In this document: piece after piece, positions 12,467 to 35,775 of the stretch
Layout: each line of letters starts with the position of its first letter
Numbering within the stretch: position 1 is the first letter of the stretch
Origin: Glycomyces sp. L485
GTDB lineage: Bacteria; Actinomycetota; Actinomycetes; Mycobacteriales; Micromonosporaceae
Direction of reading: 5' to 3'
DNA length: 58,459 nucleotides
Assembly: GCF_022548875.1 (NCBI RefSeq)
Contig: NZ_JAKZEW010000027.1
Span: forward strand, 4,595 to 63,053
Made by a program: the position numbers and the translations under genes
Notes under the pieces: generated by a model
Databases searched by the model: none
Told to the model about the DNA's origin: nothing
The model's input: the letters and a program-made list of their open reading frames with translations, nothing else

Positions 12467-12875
12467 ATGGGGTGCTCCACGACTGCGCAGGGATTTCGCC
12501 GGACGGACTCAGAGGGGAAGAGCACGTTCCGGACCCGCCGCCTCGAAATGGGTTCGACGTTCGCTGTGAATAGTTATTAGCACCTGCGGGAATTATATGT
12601 CGAATTACATCGAAGAGGATGTTTCAGTGGTTGTCGTGGAATGAAATAATCGCGTTAAGGCTGTTGCGGCAGTGAAGTGATGGGTAGTAGAGTCCCTGTT
12701 CATGACCCTGTTCGTCCGCGGACATCCCATCATGTGCCTCATTCGAATCATTTGTGTGATTGGCATCACCAAAAGGTTTGGAAGAAAATTCACTGTTGAA
12801 TCCGCTGACGAGTTGATCTTGCCGTAGTACGCTGATCTAATAACGCGAACCACTCATCTGAACCAAATCACGGAG
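12467..12875. other. AT-rich non-coding region upstream of the sigma gene
   Basis: About 400 bp without a credible gene. Bases 12560-12850 are far more AT-rich than anything else in the window (for example TAGTTATTAG, GAATTATATG, TGAAATAATC). It holds the GTTG-N15-GGGTAG promoter listed separately. The short minus-strand ORF in it has no coding bias. The rest is probably a regulatory region of the sigma factor gene. Confidence 0.5.
12663..12687 (+). promoter_or_regulatory. SigF/SigB-type promoter upstream of the sigma gene (possible autoregulation)
   Basis: GTTG (12663-12666), 15 nt, GGGTAG (12682-12687). It has the same spacing and -10 as the transketolase promoter in this window. It lies about 390 nt before the preferred ATG and about 190 nt before the earliest possible start, so the leader would be long. 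The -35 is one mismatch from GTTT. Confidence 0.45.
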
Positions 12876-13082
12876 GTGGTCGACAGACACGTGAATCGGG
12901 CGGAGACCGCAGCTATCACCCAAGAGGCTCCGTTTTGCCCAATGGAAGAGATTCACAAGCTCGACCCCCACGCCAGTCCCCGGACGCACCCGAACAGTGC
13001 CGCACACGCGGCAGGCCCATGGAAGCAGGAACCGGCGCACCCGCCGGAGCAACGCAGACACAGCGGGCAGGATGGGATTCCC

Positions 13083-13880
13083 ATGGCGGACAAGCATTCA
13101 CACGAAGGACGTTTCAGTTCGAACGAGTACGGACACCTTGCGCCGCTCTTTGAGGAGCTGGAGCAACTCGAAGAAGGCGACCCACGACACTGGGAAGTCA
13201 GGGACCGCCTCGTCACCGGCTACCTGCCGCTCGCCGAACACATCGCCCAACGGTTCTCGGGCAAGGGCATAGCGAAGGAGGACCTGATCCAGGTGGCCTC
13301 GGTCGGCCTCATCCACGCGGTCGACAGGTTCGACCCGCACCAGGGCGCCGACTTCCTCTCCTACGCGGTCCCCACGGTGATGGGGGAGGTGCGCCGCCAC
13401 TTCCGCGACACCAGCTGGCCGATGCGCGTCCCGCGTCGGCTCCAGGAGCTGCGGCTGTCGATCAATCAGGCGAACTCCGAGCTCGCGCAGAGACTCGGCA
13501 GACCCGCCACGCACGCGGAACTAGCCGAGCACCTCGGCATCTCCGAGAGGGAGGTCGAGGAGGGCTACGAGGCACGGCAGGCATACCGGGCGGTCTCGCT
13601 CGACGAGTCGCCGTTCGAAGACCAGGAGCGGGCACCGCTGGCCGAATCGGTCGGCCAGGAGGACAGCGCCCTCGAATTCGTTGACAACCACGAGTCGCTG
13701 GTGCCGCTCATCCACGACCTGCCCAGCCGCGAGCGCCGCATCCTGGCGCTGCGCTACTTCGGCGACATGACCCAGACGCAGATAGCCGAGGAGGTCGGCA
13801 TCTCGCAGATGCACGTGTCGAGGCTGCTCAACCGAATGCTCCACGACCTCCGTGAGGGCCTGACCAGCGCCTCGACTTAA
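13083..13880 (+). CDS. SigB/SigF/SigG-family general stress sigma factor
   Basis: A 265-aa group 3 sigma-70. Region 2 is clear (EDLIQVASVGLIHAVDRFDP, then SYAVPTVMGEVRRHFRD). Region 3 contains RPATHAELAEHLGISEREVEEG, and region 4 has the helix-turn-helix MTQTQIAEEVGISQMHVSRLL. The start is uncertain: ATG 13083 gives the usual family length, but the frame is open back to GTG 12876 and ATG 12942 also fits. No RsbW-type anti-sigma or RsbV antagonist gene is adjacent, unlike most sigF loci. The surrounding genes and their GGGTA promoters indicate that it directs a local stress regulon. Confidence 0.92.
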   Translation: MADKHSHEGRFSSNEYGHLAPLFEELEQLEEGDPRHWEVRDRLVTGYLPLAEHIAQRFSGKGIAKEDLIQVASVGLIHAVDRFDPHQGADFLSYAVPTVMGEVRRHFRDTSWPMRVPRRLQELRLSINQANSELAQRLGRPATHAELAEHLGISEREVEEGYEARQAYRAVSLDESPFEDQERAPLAESVGQEDSALEFVDNHESLVPLIHDLPSRERRILALRYFGDMTQTQIAEEVGISQMHVSRLLNRMLHDLREGLTSAST

Positions 13881-13887
13881 GGTCGTT

Positions 13888-13934
13888 CGCTCGCGGGGCC
13901 GTGGACGCTCACGGCGTCCCCCCGGCCCCGAGCG
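13888..13934. terminator. Strong hairpin between convergent sigma and hemerythrin genes
   Basis: A nearly perfect outer stem (CGCTCGCGGGGCCG pairing with CGGCCCCGAGCG) encloses an inner GGACGC/GCGTCC stem. It starts 8 bp after the sigma factor stop. There is no U-tract, as is common for actinomycete terminators. It may work in both directions. Confidence 0.55.
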
Positions 13935-14073
13935 GGCCGTCCGAACTCGGGCTCGACCTCCGACTGCCGGCCCACGGCGGCCCGCCGCCTTCACCGGTCC
14001 CCTCGAGGACCCGTCGCCGCATCGGCGCAGCAGTCCGCGAATGCCCGTCCTTCCCGTAGAGGTGCGGACGGGT

Positions 14074-14640
14074 TCAACCGGTCCGCTGGTTCAGCGCCGT
14101 CCGGATCTTGTCGATGAACCCCTGTCCGGCATCGAGGACGCGATCCTTCGGCAGCTTCTCGGTGGCGTGCGGATTCGGCCGGGTCGGTGAGACCTCCTCG
14201 GCCCACAGCATCTTCCCTCCCAGCTCCTCCAGCTCGGATTCGGAGCAGGCCTCCTCGACCCTCGGCAGGAAGTGCTCCTCCTCGTCCCGGACGTGGTGGC
14301 GTGCGCTCTCGATCAGCTCGCGCAGCTTCTGCTCGAAATGCGGGTGCTCCGGTCCGAAGACCTCAAGGCCGCGCATGAGCACCTCGGTCTGCCCATGCTC
14401 GGTCAGCTCGTGTTCGACCAGCCGGTCGCCGTCCGGCAGTCTCTTGGACACCTCCGGGTAGACGAACCGCTCCTCGGCGGCGAAATGGCGCTCCATCTCG
14501 GCGATGGCGTGGTCGACCAGGGCCTTCCGCTCGTCGAGATGGCCCCGGTCGTTCTCCAGCTCGGTGAACACCTCCTCGACTCGGCGATGGTCCTCTGTGA
14601 TGACCCTGATCAGATTTCGGTCCTGACTTTCGTGCGGCAT
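14074..14640 (-). CDS. Hemerythrin-domain protein
   Basis: A 188-aa cytoplasmic protein starting at ATG 14640 (MPHESQDRN). A four-helix hemerythrin HHE domain occupies about residues 10-140, with the iron-ligand spacing ITEDHRRVEEVF, MERHFAAEERFVYPE, HELTEHGQTE and ARHHVRDEEEHFLP. Such proteins bind a di-iron centre and sense or buffer oxygen, NO or iron; in actinobacteria several belong to SigB/SigF regulons. The C-terminal tail of about 45 residues is charged and disordered. Two tandem GGGTAC-type promoters lie directly upstream. It converges with the sigma factor gene. Confidence 0.9.
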   Translation of the reverse strand: MPHESQDRNLIRVITEDHRRVEEVFTELENDRGHLDERKALVDHAIAEMERHFAAEERFVYPEVSKRLPDGDRLVEHELTEHGQTEVLMRGLEVFGPEHPHFEQKLRELIESARHHVRDEEEHFLPRVEEACSESELEELGGKMLWAEEVSPTRPNPHATEKLPKDRVLDAGQGFIDKIRTALNQRTG

Positions 14641-14682
14641 GACGTCCCCCCAGGCATGCGGCTGAATATTCCGGTTCGGGAA

Positions 14683-14707
14683 GTACCCCCGGGCTCCGGC
14701 CCGAAAC
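14683..14707 (-). promoter_or_regulatory. SigF-type promoter, proximal, of the hemerythrin gene
   Basis: On the minus strand: GTTT (14707-14704), 15 nt, GGGTAC (14688-14683), about 43 nt before the ATG. It matches the actinobacterial SigF/SigB consensus exactly in the -35 and spacing. Confidence 0.75.
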
Positions 14708-14734
14708 GCGAGGCGCCACCGGGCGCCGTACCGG

Positions 14735-14759
14735 GTACCCGTCGCCGAACTGCGGGAAC
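14735..14759 (-). promoter_or_regulatory. SigF-type promoter, distal, of the hemerythrin gene
   Basis: On the minus strand: GTTC (14759-14756), 15 nt, GGGTAC (14740-14735). It is a second site 52 bp upstream of the first, one mismatch from GTTT. Confidence 0.45.
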
Positions 14760-14784
14760 ACCCGACGAAGGAGCAAGACGATGA

Positions 14785-14982
14785 CGCCACGCTCACTCCC
14801 ACCTCGCCACCGTCCACCCCTCCGCCGTGCTGCGTCTGCGCGAGCCCGGCCGCGGGGACGCGTTCGTCGACCTGCGCAAGGCCGCCGAAGTCGTCGGCGA
14901 ACGCGAGCGGCACCGCGCCCGACCCCGGACACGGCGACGGGCGCCGCGTCCCCTCCGCGCGGCGCCCGTAGGTGTTTCCTAG
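14785..14982 (+). pseudogene. Fragment resembling the C-terminus of a uracil-DNA glycosylase (UdgX/UDG-like)
   Basis: In the frame starting at 14785 the DNA encodes HLATVHPSAVLRLREP, then AFVDLRKAAEVV, ending at TAG 14980-14982. TVHPSAVLR followed by a short Leu-rich helix is the usual end of family-4/UdgX uracil-DNA glycosylases. The rest of such a gene is absent. A plausible ribosome site and ATG (GAAGGAGCAAGACG, ATG 14781) sit just before it but in another frame. I read this as a decayed or deleted gene whose 5' end was joined to a 3' remnant. Only about 40 residues support the family call. Confidence 0.45.
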
Positions 14983-14986
14983 TACC

Positions 14987-15403
14987 TCACGCCGAGATCG
15001 ACTCCACCAGTTCGCCGACGGTCGTCTCGGGCAGACTGCGGGCCACGTCGGCGAGCGCGATGATGCCCACCAGCCGGTGATCGTCGATCACCGGTATGCG
15101 GTGTATCTGGTGCTCCCGCATCTTCGCGATGGTGATGTCGGCGTCCTCGTTGGCGTCGGCCAGGATAAGGTGCCCCTGCGGAAGCCGGTCCACCGTGTAC
15201 TTCTCGGGGTCCTTCCCGGCGGCCATCACCTTCACCACCAGGTCGCGGTCGGTGACCATGCCCTTGATCTTGTTGTCGTCGGCGCCGCAGATCGGCAGGC
15301 AGCCGACGTTCATCTCGGCCATCATCCGCGCCGCGTTCGCGGCGGTGTCATCACTGCGGACGCAGGTCACGCCCGGGTGCATGATGTCTCTCGCCGTCGC
15401 CAT
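14987..15403 (-). CDS. CBS-pair protein (stress paralogue 1)
   Basis: A 138-aa protein from ATG 15403 (MATARDIMHP; ATG 15409 two codons upstream is possible). It has two CBS domains, about residues 8-62 (TAANAARMMAEMNVGCLPICG...GMVTDRDLVVKVMA) and 75-130 (ADITIAKMREHQIHRIPVIDD...GIIALADVAR). CBS pairs bind adenosyl ligands and act as energy or redox sensors; stand-alone actinobacterial versions are often stress induced. It is a close paralogue of the protein at 18147-18569, with the same start and ending. It lies downstream of transketolase but has its own GGGTAC promoter. Confidence 0.92.
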   Translation of the reverse strand: MATARDIMHPGVTCVRSDDTAANAARMMAEMNVGCLPICGADDNKIKGMVTDRDLVVKVMAAGKDPEKYTVDRLPQGHLILADANEDADITIAKMREHQIHRIPVIDDHRLVGIIALADVARSLPETTVGELVESISA

Positions 15404-15475: not shown

Positions 15476-15500
15476 GTACCCGCGCCTCCCGCATCTATGC
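15476..15500 (-). promoter_or_regulatory. SigF-like promoter of CBS paralogue 1 (variant -35)
   Basis: On the minus strand: GCAT (15500-15497), 15 nt, GGGTAC (15481-15476). The -35 departs from GTTT but is identical to that of the other CBS gene. It lies between the transketolase stop and the CBS start. Confidence 0.5.
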
Positions 15501-15506
15501 CTTCGC

Positions 15507-17351
15507 TCACGCCACGAGGCGCTGCGCGGCGTGCACGATCGCCTCGGCGTCGATCCCGGCGGCCGCCAACTGCTCGGCCGGGCTCGCCGACGCGGGCATG
15601 CCCCGCACTCCCAGCTTGGCGAACCGGATCGACGGCAGCTGCCCGCATATGACGTCCATGACCGCGTCGCCCAGGCCGCCGACGGGCCAGTGGTCCTCGA
15701 CGGTGAGGAGCCGGCCGGTGTCGGCCGCGGCCTGCCGCAGCGTCGAGGTGTCGATCGGCTTGATCGAGTAGGCGTCGATCACTCGCGCCGGGATGCCGAG
15801 GTCGGCCAGGCGCTCGGAGGCCGACAGCGCCTCCGAGACCGTGACCCCGGCCGCGACGATGGTGACGCGGTCGTGCCTGGAGGCCGCGAGGATCCGGCTG
15901 CCGCCGACCGGGAACAGCTCCCCGGGCTTGTAGATCACCGGTGTCTCGCCCCTGGTCGTGCGCAGATAACTGATGCCGGGAAGGTCGGCCATCGTGGAGG
16001 TCAGGTGCGCGCACTGATTCGCGTCGCACGGGTACAGGACGACGCTGCGCCACAGCGGCCGCATCATGGCGATGTCCTCCAGGCCCATCTGGCTGGGCCC
16101 GTCGCGACCTATCGACACGCCCGCGTGCGAGCCCACGATCCGCAGGTCGGCGTTGCCGATCGCGGCCATCCGCAGGAAGTCGTGCGCGCGGGTCAGGAAC
16201 GCCGCGAACGTCGCCGCGTAAGGCACCCAGCCCAGCGCCTGCATGCCCACGGCGTTCGCCACCATCTGCTGCTCGGCGATGTAGCACTCGAAGAACCGGT
16301 CGGGGTGCTCGTCGGCGAAGAACTTCGTGCGCGTCGAGTCGGCGACCTCGCCGTCGAGTACGACGACGTCGGGGCTGGCCTCGCCGACAGCGGCCAGGGC
16401 CTTGCCGAACGCGTCGCGGGTCGCGACCTTGGATCCGACGTCGAACTCGGGCAGGTGGACGGACTGGCCGGGCCGCTCGGGCCGCGTGCCGCGCGGCTCC
16501 GGTTCGGCGACGCGCACCCTCAGGTTCCTCGGCCCGCCGAGCTCGGCGAGCGCGTCGTCCGGAGCCGGCAGCGGCTTGCCGTGCTTGCCCTCCTTGTCCT
16601 CCACGGCGGCCACGCCCTTGCCCTTCTTGGTGCGGGCAAGGATCGCCGTCGGCCTGTCGGGGGTCTCGGCCGCCTCGGTGTAGGCCCGGTCGATCGCGGC
16701 CGTGTCGTGGCCGTCGATCTCGATGGCGTTCCAGCCGAACGCCCGCATCTGCACGGCGTACGAGCCGGTGTCCCACCCGTAGCGAGTGGGGCCGCGCTGG
16801 CCGAGCCGGTTCACGTCGACGACCGCGGTCAGGTTGGACAGGCCTTCGTAGGCGGCGGCCGCGAAGGCCTCCCACATCGACCCTTCGGCGAGCTCGGAGT
16901 CGCCGCACAGGACCCACACGCGGTAGGACACGTCGGCGAGGCGCCGCCCGGCCAGGGCCATGCCGACGCCGATGGGGAGCCCCTGTCCGAGCGAGCCGGT
17001 GGCGACGTCGACCCACGGCAGGCGCGGGGTGGGGTGGCCTTCGAGGGTGCTGCCGAGCTTGCGGTACGTCAGGAGCTCGTCCTCGTCGATGGCGCCGGCG
17101 GCGCGCAGCATGGCGTACAGCAGCGGCGAGGCGTGCCCCTTGGAGAAGATGAGCCGGTCGTTGCCCGGCAGGCCCGGATCGGCGAAGTCGTATCTGAGGT
17201 GCTTTGCGAGCAGCACCGCCATGAGGTCGGCGGCCGACATGGAGGACGTCGGGTGTCCCGAGCCCGCCCGCGCCGAGCAGCGCACCGCGTCGGCGCGCAG
17301 CTGCTGGGCGAGTTCGGCGAGGTCGGTGATCCGGCTTTCGATTGTCGTCAC
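15507..17351 (-). CDS. tkt: Transketolase
   Basis: A 614-aa thiamine-diphosphate enzyme of the pentose phosphate pathway, moving two-carbon units between ketose and aldose phosphates. The N-terminal PP domain has GSGHPTSSMSAADLM, the substrate and TPP loop LIFSKGHASPLLYA, and the TPP/Mg motif GDSELAEGSMWEAF...VVDVN. The Pyr domain has the catalytic Glu in FFECYIAEQQMVANAVG. The C-terminal domain ends in VEDHWPVGGLGDAV. The length is nearer the shorter (about 620-aa) form than the 660-700-aa E. coli form. It sits in the stress island with a perfect SigF-type promoter, suggesting a stress isozyme that feeds NADPH and pentose flux (inference). Confidence 0.93.
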   Translation of the reverse strand: MTTIESRITDLAELAQQLRADAVRCSARAGSGHPTSSMSAADLMAVLLAKHLRYDFADPGLPGNDRLIFSKGHASPLLYAMLRAAGAIDEDELLTYRKLGSTLEGHPTPRLPWVDVATGSLGQGLPIGVGMALAGRRLADVSYRVWVLCGDSELAEGSMWEAFAAAAYEGLSNLTAVVDVNRLGQRGPTRYGWDTGSYAVQMRAFGWNAIEIDGHDTAAIDRAYTEAAETPDRPTAILARTKKGKGVAAVEDKEGKHGKPLPAPDDALAELGGPRNLRVRVAEPEPRGTRPERPGQSVHLPEFDVGSKVATRDAFGKALAAVGEASPDVVVLDGEVADSTRTKFFADEHPDRFFECYIAEQQMVANAVGMQALGWVPYAATFAAFLTRAHDFLRMAAIGNADLRIVGSHAGVSIGRDGPSQMGLEDIAMMRPLWRSVVLYPCDANQCAHLTSTMADLPGISYLRTTRGETPVIYKPGELFPVGGSRILAASRHDRVTIVAAGVTVSEALSASERLADLGIPARVIDAYSIKPIDTSTLRQAAADTGRLLTVEDHWPVGGLGDAVMDVICGQLPSIRFAKLGVRGMPASASPAEQLAAAGIDAEAIVHAAQRLVA

Positions 17352-17401: not shown

Positions 17402-17426
17402 CTACCCGGCACGTTGCGGGTGAAAC
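17402..17426 (-). promoter_or_regulatory. SigF-type promoter of transketolase
   Basis: On the minus strand: GTTT (17426-17423), 15 nt, GGGTAG (17407-17402), about 50 nt before the ATG. It is back to back with the DUF4383 promoter, with 23 bp between the two -35 elements. Confidence 0.72.
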
Positions 17427-17449
17427 TGCATCGCCGCACTGCGGTGCAG

Positions 17450-17474
17450 GTGTCGCGCGCGCCCGGCGGGGTAC
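17450..17474 (+). promoter_or_regulatory. SigF-type promoter of the DUF4383 gene
   Basis: GTGT (17450-17453), 15 nt, GGGTAC (17469-17474). The divergent partner of the transketolase promoter, about 78 nt before the ATG. Confidence 0.6.
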
Positions 17475-17551: not shown

Positions 17552-18034
17552 ATGGCGAAGGCACACCACCACGGCATGCACGCCCACGTCAAGAAGCGCG
17601 AGACCGCGCCCGTCCAGGATGGGGCCATCCTCGTGGCGATGCTGTTCGTGCTGGTCGGGGTGCTGGGCTTCCTGCCCGGGATAACGACCGGATTCGGCGG
17701 CATGGAGTTCGCCGGCACCGGCTCGGACGCGAAGCTGCTGGGGATCTTCGAGGTCTCGATCCTGCACAACCTCGTCCACCTGGTCTTCGGCCTGGTCGGC
17801 ATGTTCATGTCCTGGTTCACCGGCGGCGCCAGGTTGTTCCTGCTCGGCGGCGGCACGATCTATCTGGTGCTCGGCGTGTACGGCTTCTTCATCGACAAGA
17901 CCGATGCGGCGAACTTTCTGCCGATGAACACCGCCGACGACTGGCTGCACGTCGGCCTCGGCGTGGCGATGCTCGTGCTGGGCCTGGTGCTGCGACGGAC
18001 GCCGGCGGACCGGAGCGAGGGGTATCCGACCTAG
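17552..18034 (+). CDS. DUF4383 four-helix membrane protein
   Basis: A 160-aa protein from ATG 17552, preceded by TGAGGAGGCGACG. A His-rich start (MAKAHHHGMHAH) is followed by four membrane helices at about 24-46 (DGAILVAMLFVLVGVLGFLPG), 70-92, 98-118 and 128-148. LHNLVHLVFGLVGM is the hallmark of the DUF4383 family, common and often stress-linked in actinobacteria. Its function is unknown. It is divergent from transketolase and both genes carry GGGTA-type promoters. The hydrophilic N-terminus with clustered His residues could bind metal (inference). Confidence 0.85.
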   Translation: MAKAHHHGMHAHVKKRETAPVQDGAILVAMLFVLVGVLGFLPGITTGFGGMEFAGTGSDAKLLGIFEVSILHNLVHLVFGLVGMFMSWFTGGARLFLLGGGTIYLVLGVYGFFIDKTDAANFLPMNTADDWLHVGLGVAMLVLGLVLRRTPADRSEGYPT

Positions 18035-18067
18035 GACGGATCAGGACTCGGTTCCGTTTCCCCGCCG

Positions 18068-18092
18068 CATACATCCGCACGAGCCGGGTAGC
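18068..18092 (+). promoter_or_regulatory. SigF-like promoter of CBS paralogue 2 (variant -35)
   Basis: GCAT (18068-18071), 15 nt, GGGTAG (18087-18092), 54 nt before the ATG. It shares GCATA at the -35 and CCAC just after the -10 with the promoter of the other CBS gene. Confidence 0.5.
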
Positions 18093-18146: not shown

Positions 18147-18569
18147 ATGGCCACCGCACGCGACATCATGCATCCGAGCGCGTACTGCATCCAGACCCAC
18201 GACACCGCCGCGAACGCGGCTCGGATGATGGCCGAGCACGACATCGGCGCGCTGCCGATCTGCGACGCCGAGGACCGCATCAAGGGGTTGGTCACCGACC
18301 GGGACCTGGCCATCCAGGTCATGGCGGCCGGCTACGACCCGGAGACGTACGAGATCGGCGACCTGCCGCAGCAGCACGCACTCGTCACCGCCGACGTGGC
18401 CGAGGACGCCGACCTGACCCTCGCGAAGATGTCCGAGCAGCAGGTCAGGCGTATCCCCGTCGTCGAGGACGGCCGCGTCGTCGGCATCATCGCGCAGGCC
18501 GACGTCGCCCGGTCGCTCCCCGAACCGGTCGTCGGGCAGGTCGTCAGCGCCGTCTCGGAACCGGACTAG
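18147..18569 (+). CDS. CBS-pair protein (stress paralogue 2)
   Basis: A 140-aa protein from ATG 18147, after GGGAGGAGCTCCACC. It has two CBS domains, with TAANAARMMAEHDIGALPICD...GLVTDRDLAIQVMA in the first and DLTLAKMSEQQVRRIPVVED...GIIAQADVARSLPE in the second. It shares the MATARDIMHP start and ARSLPE...VG end with the CBS protein at 14987-15403, so the two are recent duplicates separated by transketolase and DUF4383. It likely binds an adenine nucleotide. The partner is unknown. Confidence 0.92.
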   Translation: MATARDIMHPSAYCIQTHDTAANAARMMAEHDIGALPICDAEDRIKGLVTDRDLAIQVMAAGYDPETYEIGDLPQQHALVTADVAEDADLTLAKMSEQQVRRIPVVEDGRVVGIIAQADVARSLPEPVVGQVVSAVSEPD

Positions 18570-18838: not shown

Positions 18839-18863
18839 GTTTCCCTCTCCACAGCGGGGGAAC
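18839..18863 (+). promoter_or_regulatory. SigF-type promoter of the plasmid-stabilisation-like gene
   Basis: GTTT (18839-18842), 15 nt, GGGAAC (18858-18863), 61 nt before the ATG. Perfect -35 and spacing; the -10 differs from GGGTAC at one base. Confidence 0.5.
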
Positions 18864-18924: not shown

Positions 18925-19260
18925 ATGCCGCGACCGAGCTGGAGCAAGAAGGAAGAGCGGCAGTACAAGCACATCAAACGGCAGGCCGTCGAGCGCGGCA
19001 GCAGTGAGGACCGCGCCGAGGAGATCGCCGCGCGCACCGTGAACAAGCAGCGGGCGCAGGCGGGTGAGACCGAGAAGGCCAGCCGCACCTCGACCGAGGA
19101 CATGTCGGCCTACAAGCGTGGAGGCAGACGCTCCGGCAAAGGCACGGGTCCTCAGGGCCGCACCAAGGAGCAGCTCTACGAGGACGCCCGCCGCAAGGAC
19201 GTCAAGGGCCGCTCCAAGATGAACAAGGCCGAGCTCCAGCGCGCGCTCGAGCGCAGCTAG
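18925..19260 (+). CDS. Plasmid-stabilisation/ChaB-like basic protein with Rho-N/SAP-type C-terminus
   Basis: A 111-aa highly charged protein from ATG 18925, after GGAGGTGAGAGGCG. It begins PRPSWSKKEERQYKHIK, has EEIAARTVNKQRA in the middle, and ends KGRSKMNKAELQRALER, a Rho-N/SAP-like helix-turn-helix for nucleic acid binding. Actinobacterial homologues are usually annotated as plasmid stabilisation protein, but no plasmid role is evident here. It is likely a DNA- or RNA-binding stress protein. The holin-like gene begins 24 bp downstream, so the three genes 18925-20291 are probably one operon. Confidence 0.75.
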   Translation: MPRPSWSKKEERQYKHIKRQAVERGSSEDRAEEIAARTVNKQRAQAGETEKASRTSTEDMSAYKRGGRRSGKGTGPQGRTKEQLYEDARRKDVKGRSKMNKAELQRALERS

Positions 19261-19284: not shown

Positions 19285-19761
19285 ATGGAGGTCCGACACG
19301 ACCCCGAGACGATGAGCTTTCGAACCACCGAGAAAGACCCAGCGACCGTGAGGCGACGCGAATGGGAGGAACGGGACCGCTCCGTCACCCGGCTCGTCGG
19401 CGACCTGACCACCCACGTGGCGCACCTCGCCAAGGTCGAGGCCAAGTTGGCCGCCCGCGAGGTCACCGACAAGGCCAGGCGCGGCGCCCTCGGAGGCGGC
19501 CTGTTCGCGGTCGCCGCGGTCATCGCGATCCTGGGCGCTGCGGGACTCGGCGGCGCAGCCGTGGCCGCGCTCTCCTTGGTATGGCCGGTGTGGCTTTCGG
19601 CGCTGGTCGTCGGAGTCGGACTGCTCGCGCTGGCCGGGATCGTCGCCTTGATCGCAAGAGCGAAGCTGCGGAGGGCGATCCCGCCGGTCCCCGACGAGAC
19701 CATGGAGCGCGCCCGCGAGGACGTCGCGGCGATGCACGGAAGGATGGAGGCAAGACGATGA
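19285..19761 (+). CDS. Phage-holin-superfamily (DUF1469/Actinobacteria holin-X) membrane protein
   Basis: A 158-aa protein from ATG 19285 (GAGAAGGAGTGAGGAC upstream). An amphipathic N-terminus with SVTRLVGDLTTHVAHLAKVEAKLAAREV is typical of the DUF1469/holin-X family. Two adjacent membrane helices at about 67-93 and 97-122 and a charged C-terminus follow. Despite the family name it has no phage context. In actinobacteria it commonly precedes a DUF3618 gene, as here, and the pair probably works at the membrane. The stop overlaps the next start (ATGA). Confidence 0.82.
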   Translation: MEVRHDPETMSFRTTEKDPATVRRREWEERDRSVTRLVGDLTTHVAHLAKVEAKLAAREVTDKARRGALGGGLFAVAAVIAILGAAGLGGAAVAALSLVWPVWLSALVVGVGLLALAGIVALIARAKLRRAIPPVPDETMERAREDVAAMHGRMEARR

Positions 19762-20291
19762 GCGGATGGACGGTGCCACCGAACGCGGCGGTCCCTCCGG
19801 GAGCCGGACTGGAGCCGCCCCCGGGGGTGGGCCGGCCCTCCAGGCCGGAGCACGAAGAAGGCCGCGGATCGGCCGAGACGCGGGCCGAGGCGGACGCCGA
19901 GGCCGCCCAGCACCAGTCGTCCTATGAGCTGCGCAAGGACGCCGAGCACACGAGGGAGGCGCTCAACCAGGACGTGGTGGAGCTGCGCCACAAGTTCGGC
20001 ATCGACGACGAGGCGAAGGCGCGGCGCCTCGCGGCCACGGGGCCGCTCGGGCCGGTGCGGCGCCACCCCTTCACGGTCGCCTTCGCGGCCGCGGGGGCGA
20101 CGACCGCGACCATGATCGGCATCAAGATCGCCCGTGACCACCGCAAGGCGACGAAGCGCTACATGAAGGCCGCGAAGACCCGCCGCAAGGCCCAGCAGCG
20201 CTTCGGTGACGCCAGGGACGCGGTCCGCTCGGCCGCCGCCGAACTGCCGCACCGGCGGCGCTCCGGGCTGCGCCGCCTGGTCCACCGCTAG
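19758..20291 (+). CDS. DUF3618-like protein
   Basis: A 177-aa protein from ATG 19758. A disordered Pro/Gly/Glu-rich N-terminus of about 55 residues is followed by LRKDAEHTREALNQDVVELRHKF, a form of the DUF3618 repeat (normally LRxDIExTRxxLxxTVDAL). A hydrophobic segment FTVAFAAAGATTATMIGIKIA and a Lys/Arg-rich C-terminal helix (RDHRKATKRYMKAAKTRRKAQQ) complete it. The usual single helix is short, and the basic tail could contact DNA or anionic lipid. It is translationally coupled to the holin-like gene and lies 3 bp from the convergent dehydrogenase. Confidence 0.7.
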   Translation: MSGWTVPPNAAVPPGAGLEPPPGVGRPSRPEHEEGRGSAETRAEADAEAAQHQSSYELRKDAEHTREALNQDVVELRHKFGIDDEAKARRLAATGPLGPVRRHPFTVAFAAAGATTATMIGIKIARDHRKATKRYMKAAKTRRKAQQRFGDARDAVRSAAAELPHRRRSGLRRLVHR

Positions 20292-20294: not shown

Positions 20295-21140
20295 CTAACC
20301 GGGGACGGTCTCGCCGCCGAGCGCGGACAGGATCTCCCCGGTGTAGAACGACGACAGCTGGTTCGAGGCCAGGAACACATACGAGGGGGCGAGCTCGTCG
20401 GGTTCGGCGGGCCGCCCCAGCGGCACGTTCTCGCCGAAGCCCTCCACGTGGTCCTCCGAGAGAGTCGAGGGGATCAGCGGCGTCCATACCGGACCCGGTG
20501 CGACGCAGTTGACGCGGATGCCTCTGGGCGCCAGCGCCTGCGCCATCGAGTAGGTCCAGGCGTTGATGGCGCCCTTCGTCGCCGAGTAGTCGATCAGGCC
20601 CTTGTGGCCGCGCAGGCCGTTGACCGAGGACGTGTTGATGATCGCGTCGCCCGCGCCGAGGTGGGCCAGCGCCGCCGTGGTCACCCGGAAGTAGCTGTGC
20701 ATGTTCACTTCGAAGGTGCGCAGCCACTGCTCGTCGGTGATCTCCTCGGGCCGCTCCACCGGCTGCTGCGTCGCGACGTTGTTGACGAGGAGGTCGAGCC
20801 CGCCGAGGGTCTGCACCGTCTGGTCGACGACGGCCGCGCAGTGCTCGGCGGAGCCCAGGTCGCCCGGCAGCCGCGCGCACCGGCGCTGTTCGGCGTCGAC
20901 CAGCTCGGCGGTGCGCTCGGCGTCCGAGTGCTCTTCGAGGTAGGCGATCGCGACGTCGGCGCCCTCCTTCGCGAACGCGACCGCGACGGCCCGGCCGATC
21001 CCCGAGTCGCCCCCGGTGATCAGCGCCCTGCGGTCCTCGAGCAGGCCGCGGCCCTCATAGCCGCGCATGTCGTCGCGGGGCTCGGGGCGCATCTTCGCGG
21101 TGTATCCGGGCGGTTTCTCCTCCTGCGCGGGCTTGCTCAT
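20295..21140 (-). CDS. Short-chain dehydrogenase/reductase (general stress YghA/Gsp39-like)
   Basis: A 281-aa classical SDR starting at ATG 21140. The N-terminal extension (KPPGYTAKMRPEPRDDMRGYEG) is typical of the YghA/Gsp39 subgroup. The cofactor motif is ITGGDSGIGRAVAVAFAKEG. The catalytic set is NNVATQQ, the Ser in INTSSVNG, and YSATKGA. A PGPVWTPLIPS loop follows. It likely reduces aldehydes or sugars with NAD(P)H; the substrate is not known. It has a GGGTAT promoter back to back with that of the DUF2267 gene. Confidence 0.92.
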   Translation of the reverse strand: MSKPAQEEKPPGYTAKMRPEPRDDMRGYEGRGLLEDRRALITGGDSGIGRAVAVAFAKEGADVAIAYLEEHSDAERTAELVDAEQRRCARLPGDLGSAEHCAAVVDQTVQTLGGLDLLVNNVATQQPVERPEEITDEQWLRTFEVNMHSYFRVTTAALAHLGAGDAIINTSSVNGLRGHKGLIDYSATKGAINAWTYSMAQALAPRGIRVNCVAPGPVWTPLIPSTLSEDHVEGFGENVPLGRPAEPDELAPSYVFLASNQLSSFYTGEILSALGGETVPG

Positions 21141-21201: not shown

Positions 21202-21226
21202 ATACCCCTTGTGGCGGAAGCCAATC
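21202..21226 (-). promoter_or_regulatory. SigF-type promoter of the SDR gene
   Basis: On the minus strand: GATT (21226-21223), 15 nt, GGGTAT (21207-21202), about 60 nt before the ATG. The -10 is the best match to GGGTAT; the -35 has one mismatch. Confidence 0.6.
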
Positions 21227-21244: not shown

Positions 21245-21270
21245 GTGTAACCGCCCGAGCACCCGGGTAC
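21245..21270 (+). promoter_or_regulatory. SigF-type promoter of the DUF2267 gene
   Basis: GTGT (21245-21248), 16 nt, GGGTAC (21265-21270), about 32 nt before the ATG. Divergent from the SDR promoter. Confidence 0.55.
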
Positions 21271-21302: not shown

Positions 21303-21719
21303 ATGAAACACGACAGGTTCATCGGATACGTGCAGGACCGGGCGCACCTGCCGAGCCGCGGCGCGGCCGAGGGCGCCACCCGCGCCACGTTGGAGACGCT
21401 CGGGGAGCGACTTCCCGACCACCTCGCGGAGAAGATCGCCTCGCAGCTGCCGCCGGAGATCGGCGAACACCTGCGCCGCTACATGGCCGAGGACAAGAGC
21501 GGCACCGGCCAGCACTTCGGCTTCGACGAGTTCGCCTACCGGGTCGCCCAGCGCGAGCACACCGACGAGCCCTCTGCGATCTACCACAGCCGGGTCGTCC
21601 TCGAACTCGTCGGCCGCGCCACCACCGGCAGCGTCATGGACAAGGTCCGCGACGCCCTGCCGAGCGACTTGCGGCCCTTGGTCGACTCTGGGAGCACCGG
21701 TCACCTCCCGCACCACTGA
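21303..21719 (+). CDS. DUF2267 protein
   Basis: A 138-aa soluble protein from ATG 21303, after GAGGGGGAGCGAGCT. The family core is visible: a helical first half AAEGATRATLETLGERLPDHLAEKIASQLP, then the second repeat VAQREHTDEPSAIYHSRVVLELVGRATTGSVMDKVRDALPSDLRPL. DUF2267 proteins are small, all-helical and frequently encoded in actinobacterial stress clusters; no activity is known. Its own GGGTAC promoter and divergence from the SDR gene place it in the local stress regulon. Confidence 0.85.
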   Translation: MKHDRFIGYVQDRAHLPSRGAAEGATRATLETLGERLPDHLAEKIASQLPPEIGEHLRRYMAEDKSGTGQHFGFDEFAYRVAQREHTDEPSAIYHSRVVLELVGRATTGSVMDKVRDALPSDLRPLVDSGSTGHLPHH

Positions 21720-25828: not shown

Positions 25829-25853
25829 GATTGCCGCGGCGCTCAGCGGGTAC
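25829..25853 (+). promoter_or_regulatory. SigF-type promoter of csbD-like gene
   Basis: GATT (25829-25832), 15 nt, GGGTAC (25848-25853), 35 nt before the ATG. It begins immediately after the ara terminator. The same GATT -35 occurs at the SDR promoter. Confidence 0.6.
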
Positions 25854-25888: not shown

Positions 25889-26122
25889 ATGAGCGCTTTC
25901 GACAAGGCTAAGGACAAGGCCCAGCAGGCGAAGGGCAAGGCCAAGAAGAAGGTCGGCGAGGCGACCGACGACGAGGAGCTCGAAGCCGAAGGCCAGCGCG
26001 AGCAGATGGCCGGGGAGGCCAAGGAGGCCGCCCACGGTGCGAGAGACAAGGCCACTCGAGCCGCCCATGAAGCCAAGGAGAAGCTCCAGGGCGGCGACGA
26101 GGACGAGCGCCGCGGTCGGTGA
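25889..26122 (+). CDS. CsbD-family stress protein
   Basis: A 77-aa very hydrophilic helical protein from ATG 25889, chosen because GCGAGGAGGAGGCC lies just upstream. AFDKAKDKAQQAKGKAKKKVGEATDDEELEAEG is the CsbD signature, followed by a second Lys/Ala/Glu helix. CsbD is a classic SigB-controlled bacterial stress protein of unknown activity, and its GGGTAC promoter fits that. It converges with the ROK regulator gene, leaving only 9 bp between the two coding regions. Confidence 0.88.
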   Translation: MSAFDKAKDKAQQAKGKAKKKVGEATDDEELEAEGQREQMAGEAKEAAHGARDKATRAAHEAKEKLQGGDEDERRGR

Positions 26123-27356: not shown

Positions 27357-28580
27357 ATGAATCCCGACACGACCACCCTGCGACGAGCCAGAGTCGGCGT
27401 CTTCGGCGCCTTCGCCACCTCGGGCTTCGTCATGGGAGCCTGGGCCGCCGCGCTCCCCTCGGTCGACGCCCGCCTCGGCCTCGGCGAGGCGCGCCTCGGC
27501 ACCGTGCTGCTCCTCGTCCAGATCATCGGACTGGCCACCATGGTCCTCGCCGGCCGGTTGGCCGACCGGCACACGACGCGCAACGTCCTCCGCTGGACCG
27601 GGCCCGCCTCGCAGCTGCTCCTCGTCGCCCCCGCACTCGCGCCGGACTTCGCGGCGCTCCTGATATGCGGCGCGCTCTACGGCGTCGGCGTCGGCTTCAC
27701 CGAGGTCGGCCTCAACGCCCACTCGGTCGAGCTGGAGCGCTACTACCGACGCCCCGTCATCTCCTCGTTCCACGGCTTCTGGAGCCTCGGCGGGGCGCTG
27801 GCCGGCGCGCTCACCGCGCTCGGTCTCACCCTCGGTCTGGGAAGCCAGTCCATGCTGATCGTCGCCGCAGTCGTCGCCGCCGCCGCGTTCGCCCTGTGCA
27901 CACGTCCGCTGCTGCCGCCCCCGGGTCAAAACGCCGGCGGCTCCGGCGGTGCGCCCGCACCGGCCGTGAGCATCGGCGCGATCCTGCTCGCGGCGATGTT
28001 CCTGCTCGGACTCGGCGGACACCTCATCGAGTCCGGCGCGATCGACTGGGCCAACCTCCACGCCGCGCGCGTCCTCGACGCCGACGACGCGCTCGCCCCG
28101 CTGTCGTACACCGTCTTCGCGTGCGCCATGACCGTCTTCAGGCTCCTCGGCGACCCCATCCGCGGCCGGCTCGGCCCCGGCCGCACCCTGGTGTGGGCCG
28201 GATGGGCCGCCACCCTCGGCTACGCCCTGGTCCTCGCCTCTGGCAGCTTCGGCGGCATCGCCCTGGCGTGGACCGGCTGGATCCTGGCCGGATGCGGCAT
28301 CGCCATCATGGTCCCGGTCCTGTTCAGTGCCATCGGCGAGGCCGGCGGGTCGCCGTCGAACATCGCGCTGATCTCCATGTCCGGCTCGACAGGCCTCCTG
28401 CTCGGCCCGGCCGCCATCGGCTACATCGCCGAAGCCACCGGCCTCACCGGTGGCCTCATGGTCCCCGCCCTGCTCGCCGCCTTCATCGCGATCGCGGGCC
28501 CGATCACCCTGCGCCGCCTGCTGAACCGCACCACCCCGGACGACGCCGACCGGAACGCGGAGGCCACCCTGGTGCGATGA
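27357..28580 (+). CDS. MFS transporter (first of a tandem pair)
   Basis: A 407-aa, 12-helix major facilitator, ATG 27357 after GCAAGGACGGAC. The N-terminus RRARVGVFGAFATSGFVMGAWAAALPSVDARLGL, RLADRHTTR in the loop 2-3 region and SSFHGFWSLGGALAG in helix 5 are characteristic of the YbjJ/fucose-permease-like branch. The substrate is unknown; control by a ROK repressor suggests a carbohydrate or derivative. The next gene is a paralogue whose ATG overlaps this stop, so the two are co-translated. Confidence 0.88.
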   Translation: MNPDTTTLRRARVGVFGAFATSGFVMGAWAAALPSVDARLGLGEARLGTVLLLVQIIGLATMVLAGRLADRHTTRNVLRWTGPASQLLLVAPALAPDFAALLICGALYGVGVGFTEVGLNAHSVELERYYRRPVISSFHGFWSLGGALAGALTALGLTLGLGSQSMLIVAAVVAAAAFALCTRPLLPPPGQNAGGSGGAPAPAVSIGAILLAAMFLLGLGGHLIESGAIDWANLHAARVLDADDALAPLSYTVFACAMTVFRLLGDPIRGRLGPGRTLVWAGWAATLGYALVLASGSFGGIALAWTGWILAGCGIAIMVPVLFSAIGEAGGSPSNIALISMSGSTGLLLGPAAIGYIAEATGLTGGLMVPALLAAFIAIAGPITLRRLLNRTTPDDADRNAEATLVR

Positions 28581-29794
28581 CCCCCGTTCGGTTGCGGCGC
28601 GCCAGGATCGGCGTCTTCGGATGCTTCGCCACCTCCGGCTTCGTCATGGGCGCCTGGCCCGCCGCCTACCCCTCGATCGAGGCGCGACTCGACCTCGGCG
28701 AGGCCCGATTCGGCGCCGTACTCCTCGTCGTCGAGATCGCCTGCCTCGCCGCCATGGTCGCCGCCGGGCGGCTGTGCGACAAGGTCTCCAGCCGAACCGT
28801 GATCCGCTACGGCGGCACCACCGCCCAAGCGCTCCTGTTCGTCCCCGCACTCGCGCCGAGCTACGAGACGCTCCTGGCGTGCGCCGTGGTCTATGGCATC
28901 GGCCTCGGCTTCGTGGAGGTCTCCATGCAGGCGCAATCGGTGGAGCTCGAACGCCGCTACGGACGCCCCATCGTGTCCTCCTTCCACGGCTTCTGGAGCC
29001 TCGGCGGTGCCGCCGCCGGAGCCCTCGCGATCCTCGTCTTCAGCCTCGGCGTCGACTACCGGGCCCTCCTGACCGGCACCGCCGTCGCCGCCGCGATCGT
29101 CTTCGCCTGCTTCACCATCCCGCTCCTCGAAGCCCCCGAACCGATCGCGAACGGCACCCACCTTGACGGCCGACCCGTCCGCATCGGCCTCATCCTCCTG
29201 GCCGGGTCGGCCGCGATCGTCTTCAGCGCCGCCTTCGTCGAAGCCGGCGCCGCAGACTGGGCCAATCTCCACGCCGCCCGCGTCCTCGGGGCCGCCGACT
29301 CCCACGCGCCCCTGTCCTACACCGTCTTCCTCGTCGCCATGACCGTCCTCCGCCTCGTCGGCGACCCGATCCGCGGACGCCTCGGCCCTCAAAGGTCCCT
29401 GCTCCTCGCCGGAGCCCTCGCCCTCACCGGCTACCTCCTCGTCATCGCCTCCGCCTCGTTCGGCGGTCTCGCGCTGTCCTGGACCGGCTGGGCCCTCGCC
29501 GGCATCGGCTCCGCCGTGCTCATGCCCGTCATGTTCAGCGCCATCGGCGCCGCGGGCGGCACCGGATCGGACCTCGCCGCCATGAGCATGTGCGGCTCCG
29601 CCGCCTATCTGCTGTGCCCGGCCGTCGTCGGACTCCTCGCCGAGGCCACCGGCCTCACCGTCGCACTCATAGTCCCGACCGCGCTGGCCGTCGCCATCGC
29701 CCTCGCCGGGCCGATCGCCGTGACCCGCCTGCTCGGGCATCGCGCGTCACCGCCAGAGCCGGTCGGTGCCGCCGCGCCCCGCGGCGACGTATAG
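28577..29794 (+). CDS. MFS transporter (second of a tandem pair)
   Basis: A 405-aa, 12-helix protein, ATG 28577 overlapping the previous stop. It matches its neighbour segment by segment: RRARIGVFGCFATSGFVMGAWPAAYPS, SSFHGFWSLGGAAAG, AADWANLHAARVLGA, and LVGDPIRGRLGPQRSLL. It is clearly a tandem duplicate that has diverged mainly in helices 7 and 10-12. The pair could form a heteromer or transport two related compounds (inference). Its stop is 170 bp before the GDT1 gene, with a riboswitch in between. Confidence 0.88.
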   Translation: MTPVRLRRARIGVFGCFATSGFVMGAWPAAYPSIEARLDLGEARFGAVLLVVEIACLAAMVAAGRLCDKVSSRTVIRYGGTTAQALLFVPALAPSYETLLACAVVYGIGLGFVEVSMQAQSVELERRYGRPIVSSFHGFWSLGGAAAGALAILVFSLGVDYRALLTGTAVAAAIVFACFTIPLLEAPEPIANGTHLDGRPVRIGLILLAGSAAIVFSAAFVEAGAADWANLHAARVLGAADSHAPLSYTVFLVAMTVLRLVGDPIRGRLGPQRSLLLAGALALTGYLLVIASASFGGLALSWTGWALAGIGSAVLMPVMFSAIGAAGGTGSDLAAMSMCGSAAYLLCPAVVGLLAEATGLTVALIVPTALAVAIALAGPIAVTRLLGHRASPPEPVGAAAPRGDV

Positions 29795-33136: not shown

Positions 33137-34225
33137 ATGAGCCCGCGCGTTCTCAGAGAGAAGCCGCTGAGCTCGGGCACCCGTCCCCCGCTCTGGCTTC
33201 AAATCCTGCCGATCGTGCTGTTCGCCGCCCTCCTGGCCTACCAGCTCAACCTCCCCGAACCGATCAGGGTCGGGCTCGTGACGGCGATCGTGCCGATGCT
33301 GGCGGCGTTCGTGCTGGGTCCGGTCGCGATCCTCGCCATCGGAGTGACCTTCACCGGGCTGCTGGCCGCCAACCTGCTCGAGGCCGACGTCTTCAGCGGG
33401 CGCGATATTGCGGCGATCGGTTTCGTCTGGGCCACGAGCGCCTGCGTCGCCTGGCTGCGGCAGCGGATCCAGACCCGCTTGGTGACAGTCGAGGGCGTAG
33501 CCGAGGCCGTCCAGCACGCGATCCTGCCGGAGCTGCCCGGCTGCGTCGACGAACTCGAATGCGCGGGCTTCTACCGCTCGGCCCAACGCGGCGCCTTGGT
33601 CGGCGGCGACCTGTTCGACCTCCGTGCCAGCCCCTTCGGGCCGCGCCTCATCCTCGGAGACGTCCAGGGCCACGGCCTGTCAGCCGTGGGCACCGCCGCC
33701 ACGCTGCTCACGGCCTTCCACGAGGCCATACTCGACGAGCCCGACCTCGAACGAGTGGCCGCCAGGCTCGAACGGCGCCTCATCATCGACGCCGAACAGG
33801 GGCGCATCCCCGAGCTGTTCGCCTCCATCCTGCTCGTCGAATTCAACGAGGGCGCCAGCGAGGCGTGCCTGCTCTCGTACGGCCACCCGCCGCCGCTGCT
33901 GGTGCGATCAGCGCGGGTGGAAGAGATCGGCCTCAGGCCCTCCCCGCTCCTCGGGGTGCGACTCGAGACTGCGGAGAAACCGCGCGTCACCCGTATCGGC
34001 CTGCGGCCCGGTGACACGCTCCTGGCGTACTCGGACGGCGTCATCGACGCCCGTGACATCGACGGGAACTTCTACCCGCTCGCCGACCGCCTCGCGGGCC
34101 TGGCCTCGCCGACGTCCCCCGAGCGCATGGTCGACTTCGTGTGGCACGACCTGAAGGGATTCGCCCACCGCATGACCGACGACATCAGCCTGATAGCGGT
34201 CGCCCGCGGCGACGGAGCCTCGTGA
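33137..34225 (+). CDS. Membrane-anchored SpoIIE/RsbU-type PP2C phosphatase
   Basis: A 362-aa protein from ATG 33137. Four hydrophobic segments occupy about residues 19-106, followed by a PPM/SpoIIE phosphatase domain. The metal and catalytic motifs are GGDLFD (156-161), GDVQGHG (174-180), YSDGVIDARD and the final TDDISLIAV. Such enzymes dephosphorylate anti-anti-sigma factors and thereby release SigB/SigF-type sigma factors. No STAS or RsbW partner is adjacent, but the orphan sigma factor at 13 kb is a plausible end point of its signalling (inference). The membrane region without a PAS or HAMP domain suggests direct sensing of a membrane signal. Confidence 0.9.
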   Translation: MSPRVLREKPLSSGTRPPLWLQILPIVLFAALLAYQLNLPEPIRVGLVTAIVPMLAAFVLGPVAILAIGVTFTGLLAANLLEADVFSGRDIAAIGFVWATSACVAWLRQRIQTRLVTVEGVAEAVQHAILPELPGCVDELECAGFYRSAQRGALVGGDLFDLRASPFGPRLILGDVQGHGLSAVGTAATLLTAFHEAILDEPDLERVAARLERRLIIDAEQGRIPELFASILLVEFNEGASEACLLSYGHPPPLLVRSARVEEIGLRPSPLLGVRLETAEKPRVTRIGLRPGDTLLAYSDGVIDARDIDGNFYPLADRLAGLASPTSPERMVDFVWHDLKGFAHRMTDDISLIAVARGDGAS

Positions 34226-34276
34226 CGCCCCCGGTTCAGCCTGTGGGCCTGCTCGAACGGCTCCACCGCGTACCAG

Positions 34277-35116
34277 TCAGGCGCGTGAGGCCTTGAGCGA
34301 GTACAGCAGCGGCACTCGGGGCTGGGCCGGCGGCGGCCGGAAGCAGCCGTCCTCGCCCTGCACGAAGCTCTTGAACTGCAAGAACATCGTCTTGTCGTGC
34401 TCGTGCAGGAACTCGATGCGCAGCCCGGCCTCGATGAGCGCCGAGACGACGTCGCCCAGGCTGTGGATCCACTCGGTGGCGACGTTGTACACCGTCGGCG
34501 CCGACCTGTCGGCATACGTCCCCGGAGCCTCGCGCACCACCGGCAGGCCGCTCGCGTAGTCGCGCACGAACCGTGAACCGGTCGCGTCGTCGAGCGTGTG
34601 GGTGATCGGGTGGAACTCGCAGAGGTAGACGAAGCCGCCGGGCGCGATCAGCGAGGAGACGACTCGCGCCCAGTGCCGGATGTCCGGCAGCCAGTTGATC
34701 GTTCCGGCGCTCACGTAGACGATGTCGTAGTTCGGGTCCGGCACCGCGCCGACGGCCCCGTAGACGTCCGAGACGACGAACTCGGCCCGGTCGGTGGCGT
34801 AGCCCAGGTCGTCGGCCAGTCTTCTGGCGACCTTCACGGCCGGCTCGGAGAAGTCCAGGCCCACGACCCGCGAGGCCCCGAGCCGCGCCCACGTGAGCGC
34901 CTCCTGGCCCATGTGGCACTGGAGCTGGAGCAGGCGCCTTCCTGCGACGTCGCCGACCTCGCCGGGCTCGAAGTCCATGAGGACGTCCCCGCCCTCGATG
35001 AACCCCTCGAGGTCGTAGGAGGCACTCGCGGCGTGCACGGGGACGCGCTCGTCCCACAGGGCCCGATTCGCATCGAGCCAGCCAGGGGACCGGTTCGCTC
35101 CAGCGGCCATGCCCAT
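34277..35116 (-). CDS. SAM-dependent class I methyltransferase
   Basis: A 279-aa protein starting at ATG 35116 (ATG 35110 is also possible). The SAM site reads LLQLQCHMGQEALTWARLGA, where the usual acidic-GxGxG is replaced by QCHMGQ, followed by VVGLDFSEPAVKVARRLA. YDIVYVSAGTINWLPD and a C-terminal beta-strand region (MFLQFKSFV) follow. The LQCHxGQ motif defines a recognisable actinobacterial subgroup of unknown substrate. It converges with the phosphatase gene and is divergent from the GNAT gene. Confidence 0.82.
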   Translation of the reverse strand: MGMAAGANRSPGWLDANRALWDERVPVHAASASYDLEGFIEGGDVLMDFEPGEVGDVAGRRLLQLQCHMGQEALTWARLGASRVVGLDFSEPAVKVARRLADDLGYATDRAEFVVSDVYGAVGAVPDPNYDIVYVSAGTINWLPDIRHWARVVSSLIAPGGFVYLCEFHPITHTLDDATGSRFVRDYASGLPVVREAPGTYADRSAPTVYNVATEWIHSLGDVVSALIEAGLRIEFLHEHDKTMFLQFKSFVQGEDGCFRPPPAQPRVPLLYSLKASRA

Positions 35117-35220
35117 AATCTTAAGGCTCCGTAGTGCAAACGCGAAGCCAACACCCGATGCGACCGGGTCGGCGGTGCGGCGTAAGTTCGGGCACGGGCC
35201 AGCGGCGAAAGGCGGCAGAG

Positions 35221-35718
35221 TTGAACCGAATCGAAGGCGAGCGGGTGGAGCTGGTCGAGCTCGGCACCGATCGGGCGAAGAGTCTGATCGCGGGCGCGCG
35301 CGAAATCCATTGGTCTGCGGAGTATCCGTTCGACGGCACGAAGATCGCGGCGGGGATGCTGCTGAACGCCGTCGACGACGGCCTGTGGAAGCCGGGCTTC
35401 GGGATGTACCAGATCGTGCGGAGCGAGGACGGCCTGGTGGTCGGCGACGTCGGCTTCCACGCGGCGCCCGACGAGAACGGGATGGTCGAGATCGGTTACG
35501 AGCTCGTGCCGGAGGCGCGGGGGGCGGGGCTCGCGACCGACGCGGTGCTGACGATCGTCGGCTGGGCGATGGGACAGCCCGGCGTCGCGCGGGTCGAGGC
35601 CGAGACCACGATCGTCAACACCGATTCGCAGGCGGTCCTGAACCGCTCGGGCTTCGAGATCATCTCGACGAACGGCCAGGACATCCGCTACCGGTTCAAG
35701 ATCTGGCTGGGGAGGTAG
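35221..35718 (+). CDS. GNAT-family acetyltransferase
   Basis: A protein of about 165 aa if translation begins at TTG 35221. The frame is open to GTG 35134, but the extra 29 residues are Arg/Ser-rich and unlike GNAT proteins. The acetyl-CoA fold is seen in GMYQIVRSEDGLVVGDVGFH, EIGYELVPEARGAGLATDAVLTIVGWA (motif A, with RGAGLA as the pyrophosphate loop) and NTDSQAVLNRSGFEI (motif B). This resembles the RimJ/RimL group that acetylates N-terminal amines or small molecules. The substrate is unknown. Confidence 0.8.
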   Translation: MNRIEGERVELVELGTDRAKSLIAGAREIHWSAEYPFDGTKIAAGMLLNAVDDGLWKPGFGMYQIVRSEDGLVVGDVGFHAAPDENGMVEIGYELVPEARGAGLATDAVLTIVGWAMGQPGVARVEAETTIVNTDSQAVLNRSGFEIISTNGQDIRYRFKIWLGR

Positions 35719-35749
35719 ACGACGCCTCATCGAGGCGCCAACAGCCCGC

Positions 35750-35775
35750 GTTTCGCCCGAATCGTCGGAGGGTAT
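35750..35775 (+). promoter_or_regulatory. SigF-type promoter of the VOC gene
   Basis: GTTT (35750-35753), 16 nt, GGGTAT (35770-35775), 46 nt before the ATG. It is a full match to the SigF/SigB consensus, about 10 kb outside the main stress island. Confidence 0.7.

Follow-up and report, generated by a model that had tools for sequence, protein, structure and literature searches.

The window analysed here, a 58,459-nt stretch of the Glycomyces sp. L485 genome (contig NZ_JAKZEW010000027.1, here C151), made up 1.3% of a 4.42-Mb genome that was 98.7% complete. It carried a sigma factor gene of the SigB/SigF/SigG family and, between mutB and the araBAD genes, a run of genes preceded by SigF/SigB-type promoter motifs, twelve of which had been listed in a preliminary description of this DNA as the regulon of an orphan stress sigma factor. 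The order hisA-mutB-sigma-(hem)-cbs-tkt-...-psp-holin-(SDR)-(DUF2267)-araB was found again throughout the genus Glycomyces. From the comparisons below, we consider it very likely that the mutB-araBAD stretch, with csbD and probably the VOC gene as outliers, forms a SigB/SigF-type general-stress island. The genes (window coordinates) were as follows.

13083..13880 (open frame from 12876), + strand: SigB/SigF/SigG-family sigma gene (TIGR02980)
14074..14640, - strand: hemerythrin-domain gene (hem; PF01814)
14987..15403, - strand: CBS-domain gene 1 (cbs1; PF00571)
15507..17351, - strand: transketolase gene (tkt; NF004559, 929 bits)
17552..18034, + strand: DUF4383 gene (PF14325)
18147..18569, + strand: CBS-domain gene 2 (cbs2; PF00571)
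18925..19260, + strand: psp gene, earlier called plasmid-stabilisation-like (66-78% identity in 16 relatives; no match among Pfam and NCBIfam profiles)
19285..19761, + strand: Holin-X family gene (PF07332)
19758..20291, + strand: gene that we presumptively label DUF3618-like (homologs in 17 relatives; no family match in Pfam/NCBIfam searches)
20295..21140, - strand: short-chain dehydrogenase (SDR) gene (PF13561)
21303..21719, + strand: DUF2267 gene (PF10025)
25889..26122, + strand: CsbD-like gene (PF05532)
35822..36346, + strand: VOC/glyoxalase-family gene (PF00903)

The twelve listed sites, and one further candidate promoter at 12806, were as follows.

12663..12687, + strand: GTTG-N15-GGGTAG, claimed sigma-gene promoter; not supported
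12806..12833, + strand: TGACGA-N16-TACGCT, possible housekeeping-type sigma-gene promoter
14683..14707, - strand: GTTT-N15-GGGTAC, predicted hemerythrin promoter; conserved
14735..14759, - strand: GTTC-N15-GGGTAC, second hemerythrin site; weak
15476..15500, - strand: GCAT-N15-GGGTAC, predicted CBS1 promoter; conserved
17402..17426, - strand: GTTT-N15-GGGTAG, predicted transketolase promoter; conserved
17450..17474, + strand: GTGT-N15-GGGTAC, predicted DUF4383 promoter; conserved
18067..18091, + strand: GCAT-N15-GGGTAG, predicted CBS2 promoter; conserved
18839..18863, + strand: GTTT-N15-GGGAAC, predicted promoter of the psp-holin-DUF3618-like run; conserved
21202..21226, - strand: GATT-N15-GGGTAT, predicted SDR promoter; conserved in part
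21245..21270, + strand: GTGT-N16-GGGTAC, predicted DUF2267 promoter; conserved
25829..25853, + strand: GATT-N15-GGGTAC, predicted CsbD promoter; conserved
35750..35775, + strand: GTTT-N16-GGGTAT, predicted VOC promoter; best matrix score in the window

The sigma protein scored 283.5-283.6 bits against TIGR02980 (cut-off 234.35), and its sigma-70 regions 2, 3 and 4 all exceeded the Pfam cut-offs. Five stretches of the genome matched the SigB/SigF/SigG model, the window sigma alone exceeding the cut-off and the remaining four reaching at most 142 bits. Its score against the NCBIfam model "RNA polymerase sigma factor SigF" (NF005514) was 332.1 bits, below the curated cut-off of 372, and the name SigF was therefore not claimed for it. 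Thirty-six relatives were found in named records (64-87% identity over the best segment), 35 of them from Glycomyces and one (L081) from an actinomycete metagenome-assembled genome.

All twelve strings were located where the preliminary description had placed them, to within one base, and ten had a spacer of exactly 15 nt (21245 and 35750 had N16). Measured from the last base of the -10 box to the start codon chosen in our analysis, the distance was 42 nt for hem, 72 for cbs1, 50 for tkt, 77 for DUF4383, 55 for cbs2, 61 each for psp and SDR, 32 for DUF2267, 35 for CsbD and 46 for VOC. For the second hemerythrin site it was 94 nt. The claim of a proper distance failed for 12663, which lay 395 nt upstream of the sigma protein's conserved MADK start, or 188 nt upstream of a GTG that precedes it.

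Sites were then counted within 300 nt upstream of homologs of each gene, the window row included. A site preceded all the transketolase (18/18), DUF4383 (16/16), CBS2 (6/6) and DUF2267 (5/5) homologs, and a GGGAAC-type site preceded psp in 17/17 and the holin gene in the three loci without psp. Sites were also found before 16 of the 20 hemerythrin homologs, 13 of the 20 CBS1 homologs (plus one GGGAAC, in L091), the three CsbD genes beside araA (window, L210 and L213) and eight of the 13 SDR rows; among SDR rows at least 77% identical the count was 8/11. Control genes in the same loci had a site in 0/75 cases (araB 0/15, araD 0/13, araA 0/8, mutB 0/19 and hisA 0/20, one of the hisA rows being a 28% paralog). 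For the relatives alone, within 150 nt, tkt (e.g.) had a site in 17/17, versus 0.20 in shuffles. Mid-spacer identity was 0.26-0.60 while the boxes persisted; box identity was conditioned on the search pattern, and the site counts were not.

A position weight matrix was derived from 83 sites of other species, mostly orthologous promoters, so that it held no letters from the window and shared descent remained; VOC and CsbD lay outside its training groups, and the GGGAAC form was not in training. The top eight matches in the window were all listed sites (scores 15.4-21.0), the VOC site being the highest (21.0). At 15.4 or above, 659 kb of the same genome gave eight matches (0.7 per window length), a background inflated by the inclusion of parts chosen for holding pattern matches. 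CsbD (14.0), 14735 (13.6) and psp (13.1) were interleaved with three unlisted matches (10897, 28690 and 50383; 13.3-15.0), and at 13 or above the window had 14 matches, versus 1.86 per window length in the background and 1.10 in shuffles. Simple patterns were also enriched: GNTT-N15-GGGTA had four window matches versus 0.25 in shuffles, and GNTT-N15-16-GGGTA had 50 in the genome, five of them in the window versus 0.7 expected. Eight of the 20 genome matches of GNNT-N15-16-GGGTANCC fell in the window, a partly circular result since this pattern was learned from window letters. The reversed patterns gave 73 and 42 matches genome-wide, respectively, so neither loose pattern was in excess over the whole genome.

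Promoters of the form GNNT-N14-17-GGG(T/A)A conserved before their targets, as expected of a SigF/SigB-type regulon, were found at nine of the twelve sites. As predicted promoters these nine are supported, and 12663, 14735 and the VOC site are not established. The match to the known consensus drawn earlier is borne out by the conserved sites and by boxes as published, and so is the tie of DUF4383 and DUF2267 to the same promoter type.

Several results count against so simple a picture, the reversed-pattern controls among them. The GGGTA site was missing in 4/20 hemerythrin, 7/20 CBS1 (one having GGGAAC) and 5/13 SDR rows (two of the five being 28-37% non-orthologs), and a CsbD-like 33% match elsewhere in L084 had none. 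The VOC gene had no close ortholog, and its 14 distant homologs (46-53%) had no site. Site 14735 was weak: of the remaining 19 hemerythrin rows, L080 alone had a counterpart (similar place, same spacer). Antisense-strand matches were frequent in relatives before tkt (14/17), because of the divergent DUF4383 promoter, and before psp (12/16). GTTT..GGGAA occurred in 0/24 Holin-X loci outside the genus, and the idea that the psp promoter is widespread in actinobacteria was rejected; the same 24 loci had GNTT..GGGTA in four (shuffles, 0.10 and 0.53, respectively), and a GGGAAC site was present in two of the six same-genus loci of this set, in which the orientation of L144 was uncertain.

The sigma gene's own SigF-type promoter had been placed at 12663. 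The matrix score of this site (9.8) was at a level where the background gives 9-17 matches per window length, and among 20 aligned sigma leaders the near relatives L078, L079 and L085 had no GGGTA at its place, so this candidate was rejected. Autoregulation, a frequent but not universal feature of such sigma genes, was thus not seen in the window at this unconserved, background-level site. A GNNT..GGGTA site lay 125-195 nt before the sigma start in 10 of the 32 relatives' loci with readable leaders (leaving out L078, and L080 and L111, whose rows start at a contig edge and whose sites are artefacts), and therefore some members of the genus may have autoregulation. TGACnn-N16-TAnnCT was common to the leaders of the window, L078, L079 and L085, and 12806..12833 is a possible housekeeping-type promoter. 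A non-coding block, ACATGCTT..ACCGATGT, was kept shortly before the sigma start (last 80 nt) in nine of 19 relatives when a strict pattern was applied (L089, L091, L093, L097, L098, L099, L101, L109 and L110) and in more by eye; absent from the window leader, it is a possible leader element.

The description of the sigma factor as an orphan held: none of the 22 matches to the anti-sigma-kinase-type domain (PF13581) in the genome lay on its contig, which has no linked anti-sigma gene. The best match, on contig C125, was a HATPase_c_2 gene following a STAS gene, the pair (L056, 1465-2336) being flanked by H+-pyrophosphatase and DEAD-helicase genes, surroundings that match the bldG neighbourhood of Streptomyces. 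For the single stress sigma, this pair is a candidate partner-switching module. A SpoIIE-type phosphatase gene was also seen in the window (33137-34225) at a distance of 19 kb from the sigma gene; none of the listed SigF-type sites precedes it.

Predictions of the matrix outside the island were conserved in both cases followed up. In 21 of 22 genomes a site preceded a DUF3040 gene, and an oxidoreductase gene had one in 3/3 close orthologs and in 0/16 distant homologs. Confinement of the regulon to the island was thus rejected, and of the compact regulon proposed earlier it stands that the island is the densest part. Over 22 Glycomyces genomes GTTT-N15-16-GGGTANCC had 46 matches versus 15 for the control; 23 of the 46 lay within 10 kb of a sigma gene (by coordinates), another was next to a holin gene (G021), and a further one was the window VOC site. 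The DUF3040 promoter (L251-L272) occurred at two positions and in two -10 forms, split by clade: GGGTAT at 139-144 nt in six genomes and GGGAAC at 170-182 nt in thirteen, with single cases of GGGAAT (185 nt) and GGGTAA (180 nt). This is promoter turnover within one genus.

A less expected detail of the alignments is that each predicted promoter kept, throughout the genus, off-consensus letters particular to it. The boxes were GTTT..GGGTAG in all 18 tkt sites, GTGTC..GGGTA(C/T) in all 16 DUF4383 sites, GCATA..GGGTAG in all six cbs2 sites and GTTT(C/T)..GGGAAC in all 17 psp sites. Over 90 sites of relatives, box letters were bound to promoter identity with z 17-21 at -35 positions 2, 3 and 5 and -10 positions 4 and 6, and with z 10.7 at -35 position 6; letters 1 and 3 after the -10 box gave 8.6 and 7.3. 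The search pattern of each group partly fixed -35 positions 2 and 3 and -10 position 4, and left -35 positions 5 and 6 and -10 position 6 free. Since shared descent inflates all z values, spacer positions were used as control, and eleven of them gave z 2.6-6.4, far below the box letters. This analysis covered neither window rows, the sigma and holin groups, a 29%-identical hem row nor homologs without a match. The tkt, DUF4383, cbs2 and psp letters were identical between single-sigma and multi-sigma species (species were matched to sigma copy numbers by contig coordinates), and a code sorting promoters between sigma paralogs was rejected. We tentatively propose, with slightly less than even confidence, that the letters kept at sigma-contact positions while spacers drift are a fixed setting of each promoter for its relative output; being alike with one or several sigma copies, such settings would set output and not sort promoters between paralogs. 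The letters offer naturally occurring material for studying how output is set at promoters of this type.

From the genes, the sites, their conservation and the sole sigma of this kind above cut-off in the genome, all read directly from the sequence, the following model may be built. The sigma gene in this lineage would be started from a housekeeping-type promoter, and its product would probably be restrained by an unlinked anti-sigma/anti-anti-sigma pair. A stress signal would free it to direct RNA polymerase to GNNT-N15/16-GGG(T/A)A(C/T/G) promoters before the hemerythrin, two CBS, transketolase, DUF4383, SDR, DUF2267 and CsbD genes, the psp-holin run and some genes elsewhere.

The most serious competitor, though an unlikely one, is that another sigma (e.g. 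of the ECF type) reads the psp-run promoter, leaving the stress sigma with the GGGTA sites alone. ECF sigma factors using GGAAC as a -35 box are known, and the psp promoters never changed to GGGTAC; but their GTTT was retained at the 15-16 nt distance that the GGGTA sites also show, and GGGAA replaces the GGGTA of relatives in one cbs1 homolog (L091) and 14 DUF3040 promoters (there mostly at different positions, except L264). SigF-dependent genes of Mycobacterium smegmatis also include GTTT-N15/16-GGGAA promoters (PMC4694148).

It is improbable that the sites bind a repressor or activator, e.g. through the palindrome GGGTACCC or the dyad GGTTTCC...GGGAACC, in place of sigma. GGGTACCC is present within several sites, and the psp site reads almost alike on either strand (hence the antisense matches there), so a repressor site is possible at psp; against this, non-palindromic GGGTAG was retained in tkt (18/18) and cbs2 (6/6), a GNNT box stood 15 or 16 nt upstream throughout despite spacer drift, and the boxes agree with published SigF/SigB promoters (PMC4694148, PMC8346170). 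Chance, i.e. a GC-rich genome yielding such strings from which those before genes were picked, has next to no probability. The loose patterns without genome-wide excess and the background level of 12663 would suit it, but for nine of the twelve sites it is refuted by the conservation (5/5 to 18/18, versus 0/75 controls) and by the window-free ranking.

Two further features of the loci were seen. In G. arizonensis and G. tenuis (L079/L080 and L085/L111) the hisA-mutB-linked sigma copy had no stress island within 10 kb, and the island sat with another sigma copy, located where a contig ends; this split locus arose by duplication or rearrangement. Two adjacent MFS transporter genes (27357-29794; PF07690 for the second frame), with starts much alike by eye, look like a tandem duplication.

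Full-text literature searches returned no paper joining "Glycomyces" with "SigF", a passing co-mention only with "SigB", and four papers with "sigma factor", none of which, judged by listing, was on this topic. The locus appears as a clean stress regulon served by only one SigB/F-type sigma, and conserved promoters would bring the DUF4383, DUF2267 and DUF3040 genes, as well as the psp/Holin-X run, into the general stress response.

Among the closest known systems is SigF of M. smegmatis, with the consensus GTTT-N14-19-GGGTA, -35 variants GTGT, GCTT and GGTT, a -10 variant GGGAA, hemerythrin targets (MSMEG_6212 and MSMEG_2415) and a SigF-dependent run (MSMEG_1766-1804) reaching sigF itself (MSMEG_1804) (PMC4694148). 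Glycomyces resembles it in consensus, box variants, hemerythrin targets and a target cluster beside the sigma gene. It differs in that the anti-sigma gene MSMEG_1803 adjoins sigF, whereas the Glycomyces sigma contig has none, and in that "CsbD", "transketolase" and "CBS domain", all three present in the Glycomyces island, are absent from the main text of that report. The SigB homologues of Streptomyces coelicolor use the same range of boxes (-35 GNNT for SigB/L/M and GTTT for SigF/H/N; -10 boxes in which GGG and the A at position 5 hardly vary; the boxes GCATAA, GTGTAG and GGGAAC occur among the examples), but there nine paralogs have overlapping promoters, in contrast to one sigma over the cut-off here (PMC8346170). 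Sigma-H of Actinoplanes (ACSP50_0507), with a GTTT-type -35 and GGGTA -10 about 14.6 nt apart, likewise has no linked anti-sigma gene; unlike in Glycomyces, no stress-gene island is described for it in the parts of the report drawn on here, and that genome has at least 78 sigma genes (PMC11205660). Since published mycobacterial SigF and Streptomyces SigB regulons have the same promoters and variants, the Glycomyces regulon would be one of a known kind.

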